Shown here: positions 6,646 to 20,092 of the stretch, piece by piece
Numbering within the stretch: the stretch's first letter is position 1
How the letters are laid out: each line of letters begins with the position of its first letter
Source of the DNA: Rhodospirillaceae bacterium
Lineage (GTDB): Bacteria > Pseudomonadota > Alphaproteobacteria > Rhodospirillales > Rhodospirillaceae
NCBI GenBank assembly: GCA_029245025.1
Contig: JAQWQC010000030.1
Coordinates: forward strand, 1 to 36,787
Reading direction: 5' to 3'
DNA: 36,787 nt
Made by a program: the position numbers and the translations under genes
The notes under the pieces: model-generated
Database searches by the model: none
Told to the model about the DNA's origin: nothing
The model's input: only the letters and a program-made list of their open reading frames with translations

Positions 6646-6846
6646 GCTTAGGCAATCTGTTGCTAGTGGCTTGGTAACCGGCGATGAATCTAAGCTGGAA
6701 ATTAACCATTGTATCTCCTTGTTATCCAGTAATATTTTTTGTCATGGATATTCCACCGTCACCGTTTGTTACCGAAACCCCTTTGGGATAAGACGGTCTT
6801 AGGCGTAGAATTTTTATTGTCAGACATGAAGTCAGAGAGACACGCC

Positions 6847-7959
6847 ATGTTTATCAATTTCTGGTACGCAGCTGGCCGTTCAGAAGATATCACCAACGAA
6901 GCCCCCACAAAGGTTCGGATGCTCGGAATAGACTTCGTTGTCTTTAGGGATACATCTGGCCAAGTTCATTGCCTCAGCGATACCTGCGTTCACCGGGGTG
7001 GATCTCTCGGCAACGGAAAGATCCAGGACGATTGTATACAGTGTCCCTATCATGGCTGGGAGTTTGACGGCGAGGGAGCCTGTCAAAAAGTGCCGTCCCT
7101 AGGAACAGGCGGTAAACCACCAGCGCGAGCACGGACGGATTCGTATCCGGTCCAAGAAAAGTATGGCCTGGTACACGTTTTTCTTGGTGACCTACCTGAA
7201 GCTGACCGCCCACCCATTATGGAAATACCCGAATACGGTGCTGAGGGGTGGCGCACGACAATTCAACAATATGACTGGGTTATTGATTATCAAAGGTCAG
7301 TCGAGAATGCTCTCGATCCAGCTCACAATGAATTTGTGCATCCTACTCATGGGTTCTCAGGAGCTGATCCAGATTACCATGTACCACCGCTAAACATTGA
7401 AGAAACGGATTGGGGAACTGGATTTCTAATTGAATATAAAGCGCCTCCACTGGCCGATAATAAAATGCGTGAAGGCACTGGGCGCGACAGGAAGGCTGTA
7501 ATCACTGCAGGTAGTTGGTCGCATGGACCAACGTGCAATGCCACACGCATCAACCCGATGCCCGACAAACACATACATCAGTACAGTTTCAAAACTCCAA
7601 TTGATGATACACACTCTCGTTCTTATCTCATCAACCTTAGAAATTTTGTTATCGAGCCTGAGAACGATGTTCGGATGATGACCCGAAATGACGTTGTTGC
7701 TGGACAAGATGGGGGGATTCTTGAGTACATGAACCCACTGGTTACTCCGCCAACCAACTCCAAGGAGATATTCGTGCCTGCCGACGGTGCCATTGCCCGA
7801 TACAGAGAAATACTTAAAGGTTGGGAAGCGAAAGGCTGGAAGATCGACATAGACAAAATCGAAGCCACCCGTAAGAAAGTGGCCTATACCATTCCAAGCC
7901 CAGCGCGGCGTGGTACAAAAGGTTGGGTGCTCGACACTGCGCCGATGGTTGAGGTTTAA
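6847..7959 (+). CDS. Rieske non-heme iron oxygenase, catalytic subunit
   Basis: Aromatic-ring-hydroxylating or O-demethylating type oxygenase (vanillate demethylase A-like organisation); the substrate is unknown. From the ATG at 6847 the product is 370 residues. The N-terminal Rieske [2Fe-2S] site is complete: Cys47-x-His49 and Cys66-x2-His69 (CVHRGG and CPYHGW). The mononuclear iron site is NALDPAHNEFVHPTH, giving His160 and His165 with bridging Asp157; a C-terminal Asp in the EPENDVRMM region may finish the facial triad. The ATG is preceded by AGAGAG. An in-frame upstream ATG at 6739 would add 36 residues that do not resemble the family. No ferredoxin or reductase gene is adjacent, so electrons must come from elsewhere. 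Confidence 0.9.
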   Translation: MFINFWYAAGRSEDITNEAPTKVRMLGIDFVVFRDTSGQVHCLSDTCVHRGGSLGNGKIQDDCIQCPYHGWEFDGEGACQKVPSLGTGGKPPARARTDSYPVQEKYGLVHVFLGDLPEADRPPIMEIPEYGAEGWRTTIQQYDWVIDYQRSVENALDPAHNEFVHPTHGFSGADPDYHVPPLNIEETDWGTGFLIEYKAPPLADNKMREGTGRDRKAVITAGSWSHGPTCNATRINPMPDKHIHQYSFKTPIDDTHSRSYLINLRNFVIEPENDVRMMTRNDVVAGQDGGILEYMNPLVTPPTNSKEIFVPADGAIARYREILKGWEAKGWKIDIDKIEATRKKVAYTIPSPARRGTKGWVLDTAPMVEV

Positions 7960-8340
7960 GATGCTAGCGGCGTGAAGTAAGCCTCGGAGTACGGGGTGTC
8001 CCCGCACTACCCATCTTTGTATTCGGGGCGGTAAGGTGTGGCACCTCAACTGTCGTTTCATTCCTCAAAGCGCATTCAGAAGCGTTTGTGCTTTATGAGG
8101 TAGGTTTTTGCCTAGCCAAGGATGCCAGTTTGCGGAACCATAAGTTTGGCGCGTGGATCCCAGAGACCTAGGTTCTGTTTGGACAACCTAATGCGTCCTA
8201 TTCTGTAGTTGAATGCGCGGCATTGTCTGGCCTTCGCAAATATAATCTCCCAATGTCGGTAAAAAGTTATCTAAACGCGCAACCAGTTCAATGTACACCC
8301 ATTGATAGGTGTCCAGAGAACAATAAGGAATTTGCTAGTT
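7960..8340. other. Long non-coding stretch after the Rieske gene
   Basis: No convincing coding frame on either strand; the 211-codon minus frame reaching into it mostly mirrors the Rieske gene. It contains a small GC hairpin (CGGGG-TGT-CCCCG, 7992-8004) and the longer stem described separately at 8063-8100. The remainder shows no recognisable structure. Confidence 0.6.
8063..8110 (+). terminator. Possible rho-independent-type terminator downstream of the Rieske gene
   Basis: CCTCA-AAGC at 8063-8071 can pair with GCTT-ta-TGAGG ending at 8100, giving a roughly 9-bp interrupted stem. A five-T run follows at about 8106-8110. The loop is long and the T-run is offset by several bases, so this is only a plausible terminator for the Rieske transcript. 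Confidence 0.35.
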
Positions 8341-8412
8341 GTAAGCATGCACGATAGATGCCTAATTAATAAGCATATAAAGTATATGCCACTAATATGT
8401 GCATATATATGC
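8341..8412 (+). repeat. Three direct repeats with 28-bp period, each a GCAT...ATGC palindrome
   Basis: GCAT cores begin at 8345, 8373 and 8401, an exact 28-bp spacing. The central copy is a perfect inverted repeat GCATATA-AAG-TATATGC (8373-8389). The first copy shares TAAGCAT and ATGCC with it, and the third is GCATATATATGC (8401-8412). The array lies about 110-175 bp upstream of the sigma-54 promoter at 8521, where enhancer-binding activators usually sit. The cores do not match the NtrC consensus (TGCAC-type arms) well, so the protein that binds here is open. Confidence 0.6.
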
Positions 8413-8520
8413 GGCATGTTGAGTTACTTCATCAAACTTAGGGTTTAACCAAGCTAACTAACCCATTGTTATAACGTACTTATGCAATCTCATTGGTCTT
8501 GTTTAGGCGGTCTCTAATAT

Positions 8521-8536
8521 TGGCACGAAGTTTGCA
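8521..8536 (+). promoter_or_regulatory. Sigma-54 (RpoN) promoter for the torF-glnK-amtB locus
   Basis: TGGCACG-AAGT-TTGCA matches the -24/-12 consensus (TGGCAC-N5-TTGC) at every conserved base, with correct spacing. It lies 64 bp before the torF start codon, so transcription would begin near 8547. Sigma-54 control is the known mode for glnK-amtB, which supports the call. It implies activation by an enhancer-binding protein such as NtrC under nitrogen limitation. Confidence 0.85.
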
Positions 8537-8599: not shown

Positions 8600-9304
8600 A
8601 TGAAGACGAGACAATTGATAACTGCCACAGCGTTACTTGCCAGCTTAGGGTTAGCGGCTCCGGCTTTAACACAAGAATTACCTGGAGAGTTCTCAGGTAA
8701 CGTTGCGCTAACAACCGACTACGTCTTTCGGGGTTTTACACAAGCTAATGAAGACCCCGCCGTACAAGGTGGCTTGGACTGGGACTCTGGTGCAGGGTTT
8801 TATATTGGGACATGGGGCTCCAACGTTAACTTCGGTGATGGCGATGAAACCAGTGTCGAACTTGATATCTATGGCGGCTATGCGGCGGAGATAAATGGCC
8901 TCTCTTACGATGTGGGCTTTCTTTATTATTGGTATCCGGGTGCGGTCAGCACGTTGAGCTATGACTTTTGGGAAGTATACGGCTCACTCGGATACGACTT
9001 TGGTCCGTTAGCGGTATCGTTCGGCCTTGCTTACACCCCAGAAAACTTCGGCGGTACCGATAACGGCCTCTACCTTCAGAGCGGAGTGAGTTTGCCGCTT
9101 GGCGATATGTTCGGCGTTGACGCCAACTTGAATTATTCCGATGTCGATCCATCTTTTGGGGATGATTATCTTGATTGGAATGTTGGTCTTACAGCTTCTC
9201 TAGAATGGTTCGATGCAGATCTTCGCTACATCGACACGGATATTTCTGGCTGTGCAAGTGTTTGTGATAGTCGGCTAGTATTTTCTATTTCGCGTAGCTT
9301 CTAG
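8600..9304 (+). CDS. TorF-family putative porin
   Basis: Outer-membrane beta-barrel of the TorF (TIGR02001-type) family, often found next to glnK-amtB in Proteobacteria and presumed to help small nitrogen compounds cross the outer membrane. The product is 234 residues with a Sec signal peptide (about residues 1-25, ending ALTQ). The family N-terminus follows, with VALTTDYVFRGFTQ, then DPAVQGGLDW and alternating aromatic strands; it ends with a terminal Phe (ISRSF), as expected for a BAM substrate. The ATG at 8600 lies behind the sigma-54 promoter with a leader of about 50 nt. The PII remnant begins 13 bp downstream, indicating one transcript. Confidence 0.88.
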   Translation: MKTRQLITATALLASLGLAAPALTQELPGEFSGNVALTTDYVFRGFTQANEDPAVQGGLDWDSGAGFYIGTWGSNVNFGDGDETSVELDIYGGYAAEINGLSYDVGFLYYWYPGAVSTLSYDFWEVYGSLGYDFGPLAVSFGLAYTPENFGGTDNGLYLQSGVSLPLGDMFGVDANLNYSDVDPSFGDDYLDWNVGLTASLEWFDADLRYIDTDISGCASVCDSRLVFSISRSF

Positions 9305-9317
9305 AGGGGCGAAGCAG

Positions 9318-9653
9318 ATGAAATTTATATTCGCAATTATTAAACCCGGAAAGCTTGACGACGAGCGAAAAGCGCCTGCAGGGCTAGGTATTCAAGACCT
9401 AACTGTTAGCGAAGCCCGGGGCTTTGGACGCTAGATGGAGCACAAGGAAATCTAACTAGGTGCGGAACATGAGGTTTCGTAAGTGCCTAAAATACAAATC
9501 GAGATTGCTGCCGGTGTTGACCAGGTCGAATCGATTACAGAAGCGATTGCTTATACCACAAGAATCGACAGCATCGGCGACGGTAAAGTTTTCGTTCTCA
9601 ATGTTGAGGAAGCTCTTCGTATTGGTACCGGTGAAACCGGCACGGGTGCGTTG
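9318..9653 (+). pseudogene. glnK: Nitrogen regulatory protein PII (GlnK/GlnB) pseudogene
   Basis: PII proteins sense 2-oxoglutarate, ATP/ADP and uridylylation, and gate AmtB. Read in a single frame with no insertion or deletion, 9318-9653 matches a complete 112-residue PII: MKFIFAIIKPGKLDD at the start, GIQDLTVSEARGFGR, PKIQIEIA, then IGDGKVFVLNVEEALRI and GTGETG. Three codons are stops: TAG at 39 (9432-9434), TAA at 46 (9453-9455) and TAA at 55 (9480-9482). All lie in the T-loop segment. Tyr51, the usual uridylylation site, is His. The stop expected after residue 112 is also gone, so the frame runs on into amtB. The body of the protein is otherwise well conserved, so the loss looks recent. 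No intact PII is in this window. Confidence 0.9.
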
Positions 9654-9688
9654 AAACGCTTGGCTCTCCAGCAAAGGAATAATCACGT

Positions 9689-11041
9689 ATGTATACTCTA
9701 ATTAAAATACCAATGGCGGTAGCGGGCGCAGGGGGCGCTCTGGTCCTTCTGAACACCCCCGCGCTTGCTGCCGTATCCGACGAAACCGCCTATGTACTGA
9801 ACACCTTTTCATTTCTTGTGCATGGGTTTCTCGTCATGTTGATGGCGGCTGGCTTTGCGATGCTGGAATCCGGTTTGGTTCGGACAAAGAATACAGCTGC
9901 AATTTGTCTTAAGAACATAGCGCTCTACTCTATAGCGGGCCTGATGTTCTACATCGTTGGTTACAACGTGATGTACACGGATGTTGGTAGTTATGTGGGG
10001 ACATTAAGTTTTCTCTATAACCCGTCTGGCGCTGAATTGGATTTAATCAACGCTGAGGAGGCAACTGCAGACCATGTTGCTGCTGTTGTGGAGAATGGCT
10101 ACTCAGTATCATCTGATTGGTTTTTCCAGATGGTATTTGTTGCAACTACTGCCTCAATTGTTTCTGGTACGCTGGCCGAACGCATCAAGATCTGGCCCTT
10201 TTTGATTTTCGTAATCGTACTTAGCGGGTTTATTTATCCCATCCAAGCGTCTTGGACATGGGGTGAAGGTTGGCTCTATGACATGGGCTTCTCTGATTTT
10301 GCGGGATCAACACTAGTACATAGTTGTGGAGGTTGGGCTGCTTTGGTTGGCGCTCTGATTCTCGGTGCGCGGAAAGGGCGGTTTACGGATGCTGGTATTC
10401 GCCCAATACCGGGTGCCAACTTGCCGCTTGCAACTCTTGGAACATTTGTCCTGTGGTTCGGCTGGTTTGGTTTCAACGGAGGTTCGCAATTGGCCTTAGG
10501 CAGCGCTCTCGACGCCACCACGATCTCAATTGTGTATGTTAATACAAATCTCGCCGCAGCTGCCGGTGTGGTTACGGCGATGCTCATGACTCAGGTATTA
10601 TACGGCAAAATAGACCTCACTATGTGCCTAAACGGAGCATTGGCTGGTCTAGTTGCGATAACAGCAGGACCAGACTTGCAGAATCATGTCATTGCCATAA
10701 TCGTTGGTGGAATTGGCGCGGCGCTAGCGGTTCTTTCTGTGCCCTTGCTGGATAGGTTCAAAATTGATGACGTCGTCGGTGCTATACCCGTACATTTAGT
10801 AGCCGGAATTTGGGGCACGCTAGCTGTTGGCATTTTTGGCTCAGGTAGCCTCAGCACCCAGGCTATTGGCGTTCTTGCGGTCGGTGTATTTGTCTCCGCT
10901 GTCAGTGGAATCTTCTGGTTTGCGCTTAAAGTAACTGTCGGTCTTCGCGTTTCAGAAGAAGAAGAGGATTTGGGTCTTGATCGTGCCGAACTGGGGCTCG
11001 AAGCCTATCCCGAATTCGGACGCGGGTCACAGAAGATATAG
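9689..11041 (+). CDS. amtB: Ammonium transporter Amt family
   Basis: Inner-membrane ammonium channel of 450 residues. A cleavable-looking leader (AGGALVLLNTPALA) precedes about eleven membrane segments. Key residues are visible: the FAGSTLVHSCGG segment with the conserved Asp and first pore His, FGWFGFNGGS, and DDVVGAIPVHLVAGIWGTL with the second pore His. AERIKIWPF is the usual cytoplasmic motif. The ATG at 9689 is preceded by AAAGGA at about 9673-9678. It is the last gene behind the sigma-54 promoter. Because the adjacent PII gene is broken, gating would depend on a PII encoded elsewhere or be absent. The gene itself looks fully intact. Confidence 0.96.
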   Translation: MYTLIKIPMAVAGAGGALVLLNTPALAAVSDETAYVLNTFSFLVHGFLVMLMAAGFAMLESGLVRTKNTAAICLKNIALYSIAGLMFYIVGYNVMYTDVGSYVGTLSFLYNPSGAELDLINAEEATADHVAAVVENGYSVSSDWFFQMVFVATTASIVSGTLAERIKIWPFLIFVIVLSGFIYPIQASWTWGEGWLYDMGFSDFAGSTLVHSCGGWAALVGALILGARKGRFTDAGIRPIPGANLPLATLGTFVLWFGWFGFNGGSQLALGSALDATTISIVYVNTNLAAAAGVVTAMLMTQVLYGKIDLTMCLNGALAGLVAITAGPDLQNHVIAIIVGGIGAALAVLSVPLLDRFKIDDVVGAIPVHLVAGIWGTLAVGIFGSGSLSTQAIGVLAVGVFVSAVSGIFWFALKVTVGLRVSEEEEDLGLDRAELGLEAYPEFGRGSQKI

Positions 11042-11130
11042 CTCGCCAATATGCGAAAAGTTGGGTTTGACGTGAATGAGCGGGTGCGCGGGCGTCTGTT
11101 CTTTGAAAATCTGACCGGCACAAAGAAAGC

Positions 11131-11748
11131 CTAGATCGAAAAGAGTGCGGGGATTACGGCGGCTATCATCAAAGCGGCTGCCGTTATACTAAAGAGTCGG
11201 TATCTTGCTGGCGAATCTAGAATGCCAGCGATCAATCTGCCGCCACTGGCCCAGAGGAAACTGCTGGGTAGGCCAATCAGCAAAAAGACACCGGAAAACC
11301 CGAGGACGGTGCAGACTGTATCTGCAAACAGAAAGCTGTAAGTCCCGACAGCTGCTACTGCGACAGCCCAGGCCTTAGGATTGACCCATTGGAAGAGCGC
11401 AGCCTCAAGCATTCCGATCGGTCGTCCATCTGCATGATCCGTTTTGTTTAGTGCAGGAGCAGGGGCCGTACCTATGCGCCATGCCAAAAAAAGGAGATAG
11501 GCGAAGCAAATAATTCGCAATACGTTGGCGGCATTTTCGATCTGTGTGAGTACTATTGTCGACCCGAGCGCGATAACGGTCATCATCACTGCAAAGCCAA
11601 ATTGAATACCAAGGATCATTGGGACCGTTCGGACTATGCCATAGCGCGCACCCGAATGGAGAGTCATGATGTTGTTAGGCCCAGGCGTCGTGATCGAAAT
11701 CACCACGAAGATTGCGTAGGCCAAGTAAGACGCGAGACCGTGGTCCAA
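11131..11748 (-). CDS. LysE/RhtB-family amino-acid exporter
   Basis: Inner-membrane exporter of the LysE superfamily, which typically expels amino acids or derivatives. The 205-residue product has about six hydrophobic segments. It carries the family signature TTPGPNNIM near residues 20-28, and QWVNPKAW in the second half, also characteristic. The likely start is a TTG at 11748, immediately after the TAA of the upstream VOC-domain gene (sequence TAATTG). A GCAGG sits just before it, so it is probably translated by coupling to that gene. The substrate cannot be told. Confidence 0.85.
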   Translation of the reverse strand: MDHGLASYLAYAIFVVISITTPGPNNIMTLHSGARYGIVRTVPMILGIQFGFAVMMTVIALGSTIVLTQIENAANVLRIICFAYLLFLAWRIGTAPAPALNKTDHADGRPIGMLEAALFQWVNPKAWAVAVAAVGTYSFLFADTVCTVLGFSGVFLLIGLPSSFLWASGGRLIAGILDSPARYRLFSITAAALMIAAVIPALFSI

Positions 11749-16300: not shown

Positions 16301-16537
16301 AGACGGGTCTATCATCCAACGCATACAGGATTTTGCGTTGGAGAAACTCCAAATGATCTGGGTCGTTTGGATCAATAACACTGGGAGTGGGGAGGAGGGT
16401 CAATTTGTTCGCTTGAACGTTGGGTAAGATATTGGAATAAAAGTATTATTTATGCTGTGATCGCGGCGACTTTGGCAACTCGCGGACAGCTTATAAAAGC
16501 GTTATACTGCCACAAATGGTATTCAAGGAGATGACTC
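16301..16537. other. Intergenic stretch before the methyltransferase operon
   Basis: Beyond the DUF899 remnant no coding signal is convincing. The 61-codon minus frame (16218-16403) overlaps the remnant and is probably a shadow. The operon promoter must lie here; the AT-rich stretch at 16430-16455 is a candidate location, but no confident -35/-10 can be named. The Shine-Dalgarno AAGGAG of the first methyltransferase is at about 16525-16530. Confidence 0.4.
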
Positions 16538-17740
16538 ATGTTGGACCGCCGAACGTTATTTGGGGCTGCTGCAGGAATAGGGACGGCCGCTGCGTCGCTG
16601 CTGACAGGTCGGAAAGCAACAGCTAAAACCTCTGCCAAGAACACTTTGCCTGATATTGAGAAACGGGGCGCTTTGGGTCGCTTAGAGCGCCTACCCACAC
16701 TTGACGCAGAAGGTCGTGACGACTTTCTCACTGGCTTCCGTAACTGGCGGGGATCAACTGTTCAGCGAGCGGCGAAGGTCCGTTTTGAAAAGGTGCTCAG
16801 CGAAGCAGGCTATGATCCGAAGCAAGAACTGCCTATGGATAAAATCCATGAGTTGATTGAAGACGATCACGTGGTCGGCACTGAAGGCTTAATGAGAGTT
16901 TATAGTCAGCGCTTTGCACACAGAAATTTTTACCTCGCGTTTGCGGATGACGCCGATACCTACCTCGGTGAGATGGAAGCCTATGACAAGATAGGACCGG
17001 GGACGCTTAAACTTAATCCAGACCTCGATATTCCAAGCTATGCCCGGCATGAAATTCATATGCAACCGGGTGGCTATGTCGGCAATCCGTTTGCGGGGCA
17101 TCTCTATCACTACGGGACGAATGCGTTTTATTCAGCCCGGGCGACTGACAATTACCAAGACCAACATCATGCACGGCTAGCAGAACAAATACCGACCCCA
17201 GAAGATGGCAAGGTCTTACGTATCCTCGATGTGGGGTGTGGTTTGGGTCAGCTCACGGTCGCTCTAAAGGAACGTTTTCCGGATGCTGAAGTCTGGGGTG
17301 TTGAAGTGGGTGGGCCGATGATTAGATATGGTCATATGCGCGCCGTCGATGAAGGGATTGATGTCAATTTTGTTCAAGGCCTGGCTGAGGATACAGATTT
17401 CCCTGACGGCCATTTTGACATTGTGACCAGCTATATCCTTCATCATGAGATACCGGCAGATATTAGTCGGGCTGTATTTAAGGAAGCGCACCGTGTATTG
17501 CGTAAGGGCGGTCTTTATTTTCCAATTGATTTTTATACTGGTGGACGCCGCGGCGTGCCGGGAGCGTACTCACAGTATCAGGAATGGAAAGACCACCGCT
17601 GGAACAACGAGGTCTGGCGTATTGACTATAAAGAGATGGACTTTGCTGGTGACATGGAAATTTCTGGCTTTGATGTAAACAAAGAGGGTTCGCCAGCCTG
17701 GTATAGCAATCGCAATATCTTTGGCACGAAACCTGCCTAA
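16538..17740 (+). CDS. SAM-dependent methyltransferase with N-terminal Tat-like signal (cassette gene 1)
   Basis: The product has 400 residues. The first 33 form a Tat-like leader: DRRTLFGAAAGIGTAAASLL, then a possible ATA-type cleavage site. A family-specific N-terminal domain (about 45-220) contains RLERLPTLD, DFLTGFRNW, LDIPSYARHEIHMQPGGY and NPFAGHLYHYGTN. A class I methyltransferase domain follows: motif I ILDVGCGLGQLT at about 229-240, an acidic partner in EVWGVEVGGPMIRYGH, then DFPDGHFDIVTSYILHHE and VLRKGGLYFPIDF. The leader is absent from the neighbouring paralogue, which otherwise aligns along its whole length. SAM is cytoplasmic, so an exported methyltransferase would be unusual; the leader may instead be a membrane anchor or a relic. 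The Shine-Dalgarno AAGGAG is well placed, and gene 2 follows after 14 bp. The substrate is unknown. Confidence 0.85.
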   Translation: MLDRRTLFGAAAGIGTAAASLLTGRKATAKTSAKNTLPDIEKRGALGRLERLPTLDAEGRDDFLTGFRNWRGSTVQRAAKVRFEKVLSEAGYDPKQELPMDKIHELIEDDHVVGTEGLMRVYSQRFAHRNFYLAFADDADTYLGEMEAYDKIGPGTLKLNPDLDIPSYARHEIHMQPGGYVGNPFAGHLYHYGTNAFYSARATDNYQDQHHARLAEQIPTPEDGKVLRILDVGCGLGQLTVALKERFPDAEVWGVEVGGPMIRYGHMRAVDEGIDVNFVQGLAEDTDFPDGHFDIVTSYILHHEIPADISRAVFKEAHRVLRKGGLYFPIDFYTGGRRGVPGAYSQYQEWKDHRWNNEVWRIDYKEMDFAGDMEISGFDVNKEGSPAWYSNRNIFGTKPA

Positions 17741-17754
17741 AGCTGGAGAGAGCA

Positions 17755-18867
17755 ATGGCGTCTAAACTAAAATTTGACCAAGAGCCTCGCGGTTCGAAGG
17801 GGCGTTTAGAACGCCTTGCGACCCTAGACGTGGAAAGCCGGGATGATTTTCTCACTGGCTATCGCACTTGGGGCTCCAGCCGCGCTATTCCTGCAGCCGT
17901 CAAGCGGTTCGACAAACTGCTTGAGGAAGCAGGGATCGACCCGAAGTCAACCGACACGCCAATGGAAGAGATATTTGCCGCAATTGACGGTGACCCGATC
18001 ATTGGCGTGGCTGCCCGTTACCGAGCGGGTGTTCATGACGTCATGCACCGCAATTTTGACGAAGAATTTAAGTCGAACGCGGATTACTACCTGGCTGAAA
18101 TGGAAGAATTTGACAACAGAGGGCCGGGAAGTTTGGAGCTATACCCTGATTTAGATATTCCCGATTACGCCCGCTATGAGATTCACACCCAACCGGGTGG
18201 CTATGTTGGTAATCCCTTTGCCGGACACATTTATCACTACAGCACCAACAATTTTTATAACGCCGGCAAGCTTTTCAACTACCAGGACGAGCTGCACACG
18301 CGGCTTGGGAATCAGGTTCCTGAACCTGAAGATGGCAAAGTTACACGAGTTCTCGATATCGGATGTGGCATCGGCCAATTGGCCGTTGCCATGAAGGAAC
18401 GATTTGTCGATGCCGAAGTGTGGGGCATTGATGCCGGTGGGCCAATGATTCGCTATGGACATATGCGGGCCGTGGAGCTTGATGTAGCAGTGAATTTCGC
18501 TCAACGCATGGCAGAAGATACCAAGTTCCCTGACAACCATTTTGATATCGTGGCATCCTATATTCTTCACCACGAAGTGCCGGAAGAGATTTCCAAAGAT
18601 ATCACCAAAGAGGTGCACCGTATCTTGCGTCCGGGCGGTGTGTTTTTTCCGATAGATTTTCAGACCGGCTCCTCTCCAGGCGCTCGTTCGGCCTATGCCA
18701 AGTATAGTCAGTGGAAAGATCACCGCTGGAATGAAGAAGTCTGGCGCCAGGAGTATGCGCGTTTTGATTTCCCTGAGGCGATGGCTGATGCGGGATTTGA
18801 GGTCACACGCGAGGGACCACCGGCGTGGCGTAGCCGCTACAACTTGTTGGGCACAAAGAAGGCCTAG
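17755..18867 (+). CDS. SAM-dependent methyltransferase (cassette gene 2, no leader)
   Basis: Paralogue of the preceding gene, 370 residues, starting directly in the shared domain (GRLERLATLDVESRDDFLTG) without any signal peptide. It shares the N-terminal family landmarks LDIPDYARYEIHTQPGGY and NPFAGHIYHYSTNNFYN. Motif I is VLDIGCGIGQLAV at about residues 199-211, followed by EVWGIDAGGPMIRYGH, KFPDNHFDIVASYILHHE and ILRPGGVFFPIDF. It is preceded by GGAGAG 5-8 nt before the ATG and lies 14 bp after gene 1, hence one operon. Tandem duplication with later gain or loss of the leader is the simplest history. Substrate and product are unknown; the HHE and RYGH motifs may mark the active-site region. 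Confidence 0.87.
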   Translation: MASKLKFDQEPRGSKGRLERLATLDVESRDDFLTGYRTWGSSRAIPAAVKRFDKLLEEAGIDPKSTDTPMEEIFAAIDGDPIIGVAARYRAGVHDVMHRNFDEEFKSNADYYLAEMEEFDNRGPGSLELYPDLDIPDYARYEIHTQPGGYVGNPFAGHIYHYSTNNFYNAGKLFNYQDELHTRLGNQVPEPEDGKVTRVLDIGCGIGQLAVAMKERFVDAEVWGIDAGGPMIRYGHMRAVELDVAVNFAQRMAEDTKFPDNHFDIVASYILHHEVPEEISKDITKEVHRILRPGGVFFPIDFQTGSSPGARSAYAKYSQWKDHRWNEEVWRQEYARFDFPEAMADAGFEVTREGPPAWRSRYNLLGTKKA

Positions 18868-18892
18868 TTGGGCTCGCTAGGGCACACCCGTC

Positions 18893-20092
18893 ATGCTTGA
18901 GGAAAACAAAGACTTCCCTAATATTTCTGAAGTGATGGCCTTCAGTCAGACAGAATTGTCTCGGCAGGGGTTTGTGAGTGCGTTGCGTAAACACATCATG
19001 GTCGACTTAGCATCCGAGATGCGTCGGGACTATGAGTCCAATGTCAAACCCTCGCATACCGCAAAGACAGGAGCCGAACCCTCTACGCCGCGCGACGTTA
19101 AGAAGGCAATGGAGAGTCGAACCCGTTACCGGATGTGGAGTTCGCTTAGATACAACGCACAAGAAATGGTTTGGGCCTCGGTGCAGCATGGAGTTGAACG
19201 CGCTTTACCGGAGATGATTGATCTGGCTAAAGGCGCTGCTGCCATGAACCCAGCAGGCGGTTCGCTCCGTCTCGATCCTCAGCTAGAAATTCCACGCTAC
19301 GTTTCAGCACTTGATGTGCATCTCATGCCTGGATGCTTCCATACAGAACATACTCAACATGATGTCGCGCAGGGGGCTGTGCAAGTCGCTGGAGGGGATG
19401 TCTTTCGAGGTGGGTTTCGGCATCGTAAAGGCAACCCAGGTGGGGTTGGGGAGTCGATTGCGCATTATCTCAAACTAAAACACCCTGAGTTCAACCCTCA
19501 GCGCATTCTTGATCTAGGTTGCAACACCGGAAAAAACCTTTTTCCTTATCTTGACGTTTTTCCAGATGCGGAAGCTCATGGCATCGATGTCGGTGCACCT
19601 TTGCTTCGTTATGGGCATGCGGTCGCATCACATGAGGGACGTCCGGTGCATTTTTCTCAACAGAATGCAGAACATTTAGACTTTGAGGACGATAGCTTTG
19701 ACATCGTAACCTCGAGCTTCTTCCTCCACGAGTTGCCGGTTAAATCTACACAGGCCATCTTTAAGGAAGCTCACCGCGTTCTTAAACCTGGTGGGCTCAT
19801 GGTCCATATGGAATTGCCGCCAAATTCTGAAGTGGATCCTTACTACGCGTTTTACTTGGATTGGGACGCAGGCTCCAACAACAATGAACCTTTCTATGCC
19901 GAATTCAGAAATCAAGATGTTCTCGAGATTTGTTCCGAGGCGGGGTTTCAGGCTGAGAAATCTTTGAAATTCCTCATTCCCAACTATTCTTCCTTCGGGT
20001 GCGATAAATTTGAGGCATTTGTGAATGGAGATATGCCAGCGCCGCAGCATGGTAATGGCGCGAGTTGGTTTATCTTCGGCAGCTGGAAGTAA
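18893..20092 (+). CDS. Divergent SAM-dependent methyltransferase (cassette gene 3)
   Basis: Third, more distant member of the same cassette, 399 residues, no signal peptide. The N-terminal ~190 residues differ from genes 1 and 2 but keep a matching LEIPRYVSALDVHLMPGCF segment in place of their LDIP-YAR-EIH-QPGGY. The methyltransferase core is clear: motif I ILDLGCNTGKN at about residue 204, AHGIDVGAPLLRYGH, LDFEDDSFDIVTSSFFLHE and VLKPGGLMVHME. The shared RYGH element and the FD-I-V-x-S-x-x-L-H-E stretch tie it to its neighbours. It follows gene 2 by 25 bp and ends 5 bp from a convergent gene. Three related enzymes may methylate successive positions or act as a heteromer; this is inference. 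Confidence 0.83.
   Translation: MLEENKDFPNISEVMAFSQTELSRQGFVSALRKHIMVDLASEMRRDYESNVKPSHTAKTGAEPSTPRDVKKAMESRTRYRMWSSLRYNAQEMVWASVQHGVERALPEMIDLAKGAAAMNPAGGSLRLDPQLEIPRYVSALDVHLMPGCFHTEHTQHDVAQGAVQVAGGDVFRGGFRHRKGNPGGVGESIAHYLKLKHPEFNPQRILDLGCNTGKNLFPYLDVFPDAEAHGIDVGAPLLRYGHAVASHEGRPVHFSQQNAEHLDFEDDSFDIVTSSFFLHELPVKSTQAIFKEAHRVLKPGGLMVHMELPPNSEVDPYYAFYLDWDAGSNNNEPFYAEFRNQDVLEICSEAGFQAEKSLKFLIPNYSSFGCDKFEAFVNGDMPAPQHGNGASWFIFGSWK

Follow-up and report, generated by a model that had tools for sequence, protein, structure and literature searches.

The window analysed here, a stretch of 36,787 nucleotides, makes up the entire contig G000:C15; the genome, 98% complete, comprises 3.09 Mb in 36 contigs. 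It carries an operon whose features all lie on the plus strand. The operon is preceded by a sigma-54-type promoter element, TGGCACG-N4-TTGCA (8521-8536), which was found by a pattern scan and is the sole match in the window, on both strands, to the pattern used, built on the sigma-54 consensus. The first gene (8600-9304) is intact and encodes a TorF family putative porin (TIGR02001 / Gcw_chp), as judged from Pfam and NCBIfam matches, with orthologues in two genomes of the same genus, G006 and G004. It is followed by a glnK (PII) pseudogene of 112 codons (9318-9653), a Shine-Dalgarno-like sequence AAAGGAA (9673-9679), the letters of which are identical in G006 and G004, and amtB (9689-11041), a gene for a marine-subtype ammonium transporter (TIGR03644). 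The glnK frame is thus directly upstream of amtB and on the same strand, in the operon order typical of this pair. The profile matches, the open frame and the concentration of changes at third codon positions indicate that amtB is intact and under purifying selection; its intactness had already been stated in the first-pass annotation of this DNA. The C-terminal tail of AmtB (VSEEEED...GSQKI) is identical to that of G006. A sigma-54-type site also occurs upstream of the porin gene in G006, G004 and G009, a genome of an outgroup genus, and directly upstream of amtB in the congener G001.

The family assignment of the broken gene rests on translation, on the congener alignment and on a match to Pfam P-II (PF00543). 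With X placed at the stops, the match scores 63.2-63.4 bits against a cut-off of 25 and covers profile positions 1-102 of 102. All 112 codons can be aligned to the intact orthologues of G006 and G004 with zero indels. The frame contains three premature stops, TAG at codon 39 (9432-9434), TAA at codon 46 (9453-9455) and TAA at codon 55 (9480-9482), and the normal stop is gone as well, leaving no translatable open reading frame of the kind expected of the PII family. Lys is encoded where the glnK stop is expected, after codon 112, and the frame remains open to the TAA at 9699-9701, beyond the start of amtB at 9689. At codon 51 (9468-9470) His replaces Tyr, which is the uridylylation site of the E. 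coli PII according to the available part of the source (PMC4274968). The indel-free frame, the positions of the stops, the change of Tyr51 to His and the lack of a stop after codon 112 had been described in the first-pass annotation, and translation together with the congener alignment confirms each of them.

The condition of the protein was assessed against 93 distinct intact PIIs, a set limited to matches of more than 100 positions, without the copies of the window gene and with no exclusion on account of a stop. In the T-loop (codons 37-55), Tyr51 is found in 89 of the 93 relatives and Arg47 in all of them; the window gene has His and Leu at these places. Residues Gln39, Gly41, Lys58, Lys90, Arg101 and Arg103 are described as nucleotide/2-oxoglutarate contacts of an archaeal GlnK in the part of the source that was available (PMC8395244). 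With this numbering, assumed from the conserved alignment to carry over to the window, the window gene has a stop at position 39, Glu at 41 and Gly at 103, and keeps the residues at 58, 90 and 101. The loss of Arg103 (9624-9626), present in 93/93 intact PIIs, is damage to the body of the protein. It is accompanied by other changes of this kind, as the window residues at positions 16, 20, 27, 60, 81, 83 and 103 were not found at their places in any of the 93. The nucleotide-binding body, initially described as preserved, is evidently not preserved.

The changes of the window lineage were polarised with G004 as the outgroup and G006 as the nearest relative. In glnK, 32 changes over 336 bases are distributed over the three codon positions as 9:12:11; the corresponding counts in this lineage are 8:5:54 for amtB and 14:4:36 for the porin gene (glnK versus amtB, Fisher p=1e-5). 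The changes of glnK in the G006 lineage are distributed as 4:1:9, and the comparison of the two lineages on glnK alone (21:11 versus 5:9 for first and second against third positions) showed no significant difference (p=0.10). The codon model fitted to six taxa gave a dN/dS of 0.51 for the window branch of glnK (0.575 and 0.457 for its two halves), compared with 0.04 and 0.086 elsewhere. The hypothesis that this branch shares the purifying background was rejected (2dlnL 18.7, p=1.5e-5), and neutrality was not rejected (2dlnL 0.52, p=0.47). If glnK died only after part of the branch had elapsed, its dN/dS should be below 1. Both the codon model and the codon positions reveal that, compared with intact orthologues, the gene is no longer under the purifying selection that would distinguish it from a bacterial pseudogene. 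The first and second positions of glnK are changed at 21 of 200 sites, versus 29 of 75 four-fold sites of amtB in the window lineage; together with the fits, a very rough dating on this basis would place the death of glnK about a quarter to half of the branch back towards the split from G006. There may be a somewhat higher overall rate of evolution in the window lineage: amino-acid changes on its side and on that of G006 number 15 versus 4 in the porin (p=0.019), and the differences are not significant in AmtB (14 versus 8, p=0.29) and in a neighbouring oxygenase (15 versus 7, p=0.13).

Since intact orthologues occupy the same operon in G006 and G004 and the codon-position pattern is of the decay type, the decay of glnK in the window is considered real, in agreement with the earlier claim that the PII gene is dead. 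The same data bear on the suggestion that an intact gene only seems to carry the stops, through a local error of sequencing or assembly. The decay is known from one genome of the species, which leaves some room for an error of this kind, but the 32 polarised substitutions extend across the 336 bases with no indel and are of many types (21 of the 32 are transitions), and the flanking genes of the operon are open and show the third-position pattern. An artefact is therefore extremely improbable.

The three stops all fall in the T-loop, and on this basis it had been claimed that all the damage is located there. This holds for the nonsense codons only: the substitutions are equally dense in the T-loop (6 of 43 testable sites) and outside it (26 of 210; Fisher p=0.80). 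The accompanying argument, that damage from random decay should be scattered, is correct, and scattered damage is what this gene shows; the stops alone cluster. A related proposal is that the T-loop, which serves uridylylation and AmtB plugging, was the first part to be released from selection and the body was still kept, so that GlnK would have gone on sensing without signalling and the stops came later. It draws on the location, within codons 39-55, of the three stops and of the changes at Gly41, Arg47 and Tyr51. In addition, where at least 95% of the intact PIIs share a residue, the position is changed in 5 of 7 cases within the loop, compared with 3 of 19 elsewhere (Fisher p=0.014), and at these conserved positions a small bias towards the loop is conceivable. 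An earlier three-taxon codon fit also gave a lower dN/dS of 0.27 for the C-terminal half, where neutrality was at the edge of rejection (2dlnL 3.82, p about 0.05). Against these points stand the equal density of nucleotide changes inside and outside the loop, the body residues matched in none of the 93 intact relatives, and the joint six-taxon fit, in which the two halves are alike on the window branch (2dlnL 0.25, p=0.62) and a model of purifying selection for the C-terminal half taken by itself is rejected (p=0.012). It seems very unlikely that relaxed selection began in the loop, as the first-pass annotation had proposed among its readings.

In the three-taxon fit the halves of the gene were fitted apart, the length of the window branch drifted (0.03 in one half and 1.02 in the other), and for both codons 1-55 and amtB the window-branch dN/dS reached its upper bound. 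Because of this bound, selection on amtB was read from the codon positions. The constrained C-terminal half suggested by that fit was rejected, as the difference between the halves vanished in the joint fit of six taxa.

The clustering of the stops was considered separately, with G006 as a stand-in for the ancestor. The T-loop holds 11 of the 34 pre-stop codons of the gene and 14 of the 38 one-step routes to a stop. The p values that follow are nominal, as the pattern was seen first and tested afterwards. Given three stops, the probability that all three lie in codons 37-55 is 0.027-0.040, depending on the weighting, and 0.023-0.038 in simulated decay. For a cluster of the three stops anywhere in the gene, with a span of at most 16 codons, the probability is 0.048-0.093 across the weightings and mutation numbers that were tried, and at least three stops appear with a probability of 0.013-0.092 in decay simulated with 22-40 random substitutions. 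The number and place of the stops, taken together, are mildly odd. Because the p values are nominal and post hoc, the cluster is treated as mostly chance helped by the codon make-up. Clustering of stops in a functional loop can reflect codon composition and not selection on the loop.

Directly after the third stop, a GTG begins a residual open frame of 72 codons (9483-9701), which comprises the C-terminal half of the gene and an overlap with the start of amtB. A GAGG ends 8 bases before this GTG, and one might imagine a programmed or dual product, in which an N-terminal peptide of 38 residues is made together with the 72-residue fragment restarted at GTG, or else a read-through of the stops. 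Programmed use of this kind implies stops shared among relatives and a conserved body. Among 108 PII matches in 41 genomes, however, the window gene is the only one with an internal stop, and its body is not conserved. On the window branch, the C-terminal half (dN/dS 0.457), the part for which such an estimate had been suggested, is compatible with neutrality, and a nucleotide contact in it is lost. Moreover, neighbouring genes use both codons as their stops, the porin gene and amtB TAG and the oxygenase gene TAA (7957-7959), which indicates that both are read as stops here. The residual frame is judged non-functional on these grounds, and a dual or programmed product, another of the readings first offered, has next to no probability.

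The stops are absent from the relatives compared, a point raised at the outset. Among named relatives, the highest AmtB identities are those of two uncultured alphaproteobacterial assemblies (77% and 71%), followed by Kiloniella laminariae (70%). In the sample of the genus, which comprises seven genomes with that of the window (G000) included, AmtB of the window type (83-93% identity) was found in G006 (93%), G004 (87%) and G001. An intact glnK lies between the porin gene and amtB in G006 and G004, and so beside amtB in two of the seven genomes. At the G001 site (locus L045, 4101-4175) the porin gene and glnK are absent, and amtB is directly behind the sigma-54-type site. Deletion is the simplest reading for G001, because G009, although of another genus, has the porin gene, glnK and amtB. 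It appears that G001 lost glnK by a clean deletion and not by point decay, to judge from a site where nothing of glnK is left. In G002 and G003 the porin gene is present and neither glnK nor amtB was found in the stretches read; these two genomes encode only a distant Amt (35-37%) and have one PII match each. The sole Amt of G005 is likewise distant (38%), and a single PII match occurs in this genome.

The rpoB protein tree joins G000 and G006 as sisters (100/99), and likewise G004 and G005 (100/99), and places G001 as the first branch in the genus (92/94), with the row of G005 43% filled and the rpoB of G004 pieced together from three frames. These three frames lie on one contig of G004 (C6:45184-49319; L132, L135 and L136), and the split looks like the result of assembly errors in the genome that serves as the outgroup here. 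With vertical descent and assemblies complete at this site, glnK would have been lost or broken at least three times in the genus, and four times on the tree as drawn.

In the family, 27 AmtB loci at 60% identity or more were found in 73 genomes. At 26 of them there is a PII match in the stretch examined, and 25 of these matches are stop-free, so that the only exceptions to the intact glnK-amtB pair are the window and G001, the pair being intact at 25 of the 25 other loci. Excluded from the 27 as falling below 60% identity were L162 (43%, with PII alongside) and L164 and L165 (45-47%, with none alongside), as well as two without a locus. In a wider set of AmtB loci, some with short flanks, a PII match was present in the stretch examined at 37 of 80 and absent at 43. 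The parallel loss, by point decay in the window and apparently by deletion in G001, is the mildly interesting part of this distribution. One might suppose that loss of GlnK with retention of AmtB is favoured in the genus, leaving AmtB unplugged or gated by GlnB alone, but this is considered rather unlikely.

The arrangement can be compared with described systems. The glnKamtB gene pair was reportedly treated by Thomas, Coutts and Merrick in 2000; the window shares the linkage, but its glnK is a pseudogene. In Herbaspirillum seropedicae, as described in the available part of the report, the nlmA-glnK-amtB operon is NtrC-dependent, glnB lies elsewhere, and a laboratory deletion of glnK left amtB expression unchanged (PMC3023670). 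The window resembles it in the order of membrane protein gene, glnK and amtB and in having glnB elsewhere, with a sigma-54-type site where the H. seropedicae operon depends on NtrC. In contrast to the window, glnK is intact in that bacterium, and its deletion strain resembles the natural state of the window. G001 is like the window in keeping amtB behind a sigma-54-type site without GlnK, but has no glnK remnant at the site. Similarly, AmtB relatives that include SAR11 (Pelagibacteraceae) have amtB without an adjacent working PII gene, but no glnK remnant was matched beside amtB in those without PII alongside, SAR11 among them. A description of the present case was not found among the open-access papers on glnK pseudogenes or glnK loss returned by the terms searched, as far as their available parts extend.

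The genome of the window has one other PII match, which is stop-free; whether further PII genes exist was a question posed by the first-pass annotation. The product of this gene, GlnB, has a standard T-loop, and the gene is located directly before a glutamine-synthetase-like gene, named glnA from its sequence. GlnD and NtrC also score above their cut-offs. As the genome keeps glnB-glnA, glnD and ntrC, GlnB probably covers the role of GlnK, and it may gate AmtB. With amtB under selection and glnB intact, this natural glnK knock-out is a test case for a possible gating of AmtB by GlnB alone in an alphaproteobacterium.

The observations are best explained, with a probability of about 0.9, by a young and ordinary glnK pseudogene, in which decay has spread over the gene beside an intact and selected amtB, with GlnB as the remaining PII. 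GlnK plugs AmtB when nitrogen is plentiful. The ancestral operon would have consisted of the sigma-54-type promoter, the TorF porin gene, glnK and amtB. The need for glnK was probably lost at a point very roughly a quarter to half of the distance to the split from G006, counted back from the present, and since then the gene would have gathered mutations evenly along its length. The three stops presumably fell in the T-loop because many of its codons can turn into a stop by a single change, and with some luck. The amtB gene has retained its own ribosome-binding-site-like sequence and remains under selection. NtrB/NtrC signalling is most likely served by GlnB, which would also be the protein to gate AmtB if any does.

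The neighbourhood of the operon is also eroding and losing DNA, as the alignment with relatives reveals. Directly behind amtB lie the last 27 codons and the stop of a methyltransferase gene (11051-11134, plus strand), the rest of which has been deleted. The remnant is 93% identical over 27 residues to the C-terminus of a 401-residue protein of G003. The gene is of full length in relatives (a match over 400 residues in G006 and the 401-residue frame in G003), and 1304 bases of G006, located between two aligned blocks at the methyltransferase, are missing from the window. Between the oxygenase and porin genes, 275 unaligned bases of the window (8227-8501) replace about 2 kb of G006; in G006 this part holds one gene resembling acetyltransferases and another resembling glyoxalases. 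At 16526-19969 the same methyltransferase protein of G003 is matched three times in succession (54%, 55% and 31% identity), by a tandem family near the operon. The oxygenase gene (6739-7959) encodes a Rieske/VanA-type protein, for which all seven genomes of the genus have matches, between 3 and 8 per genome.
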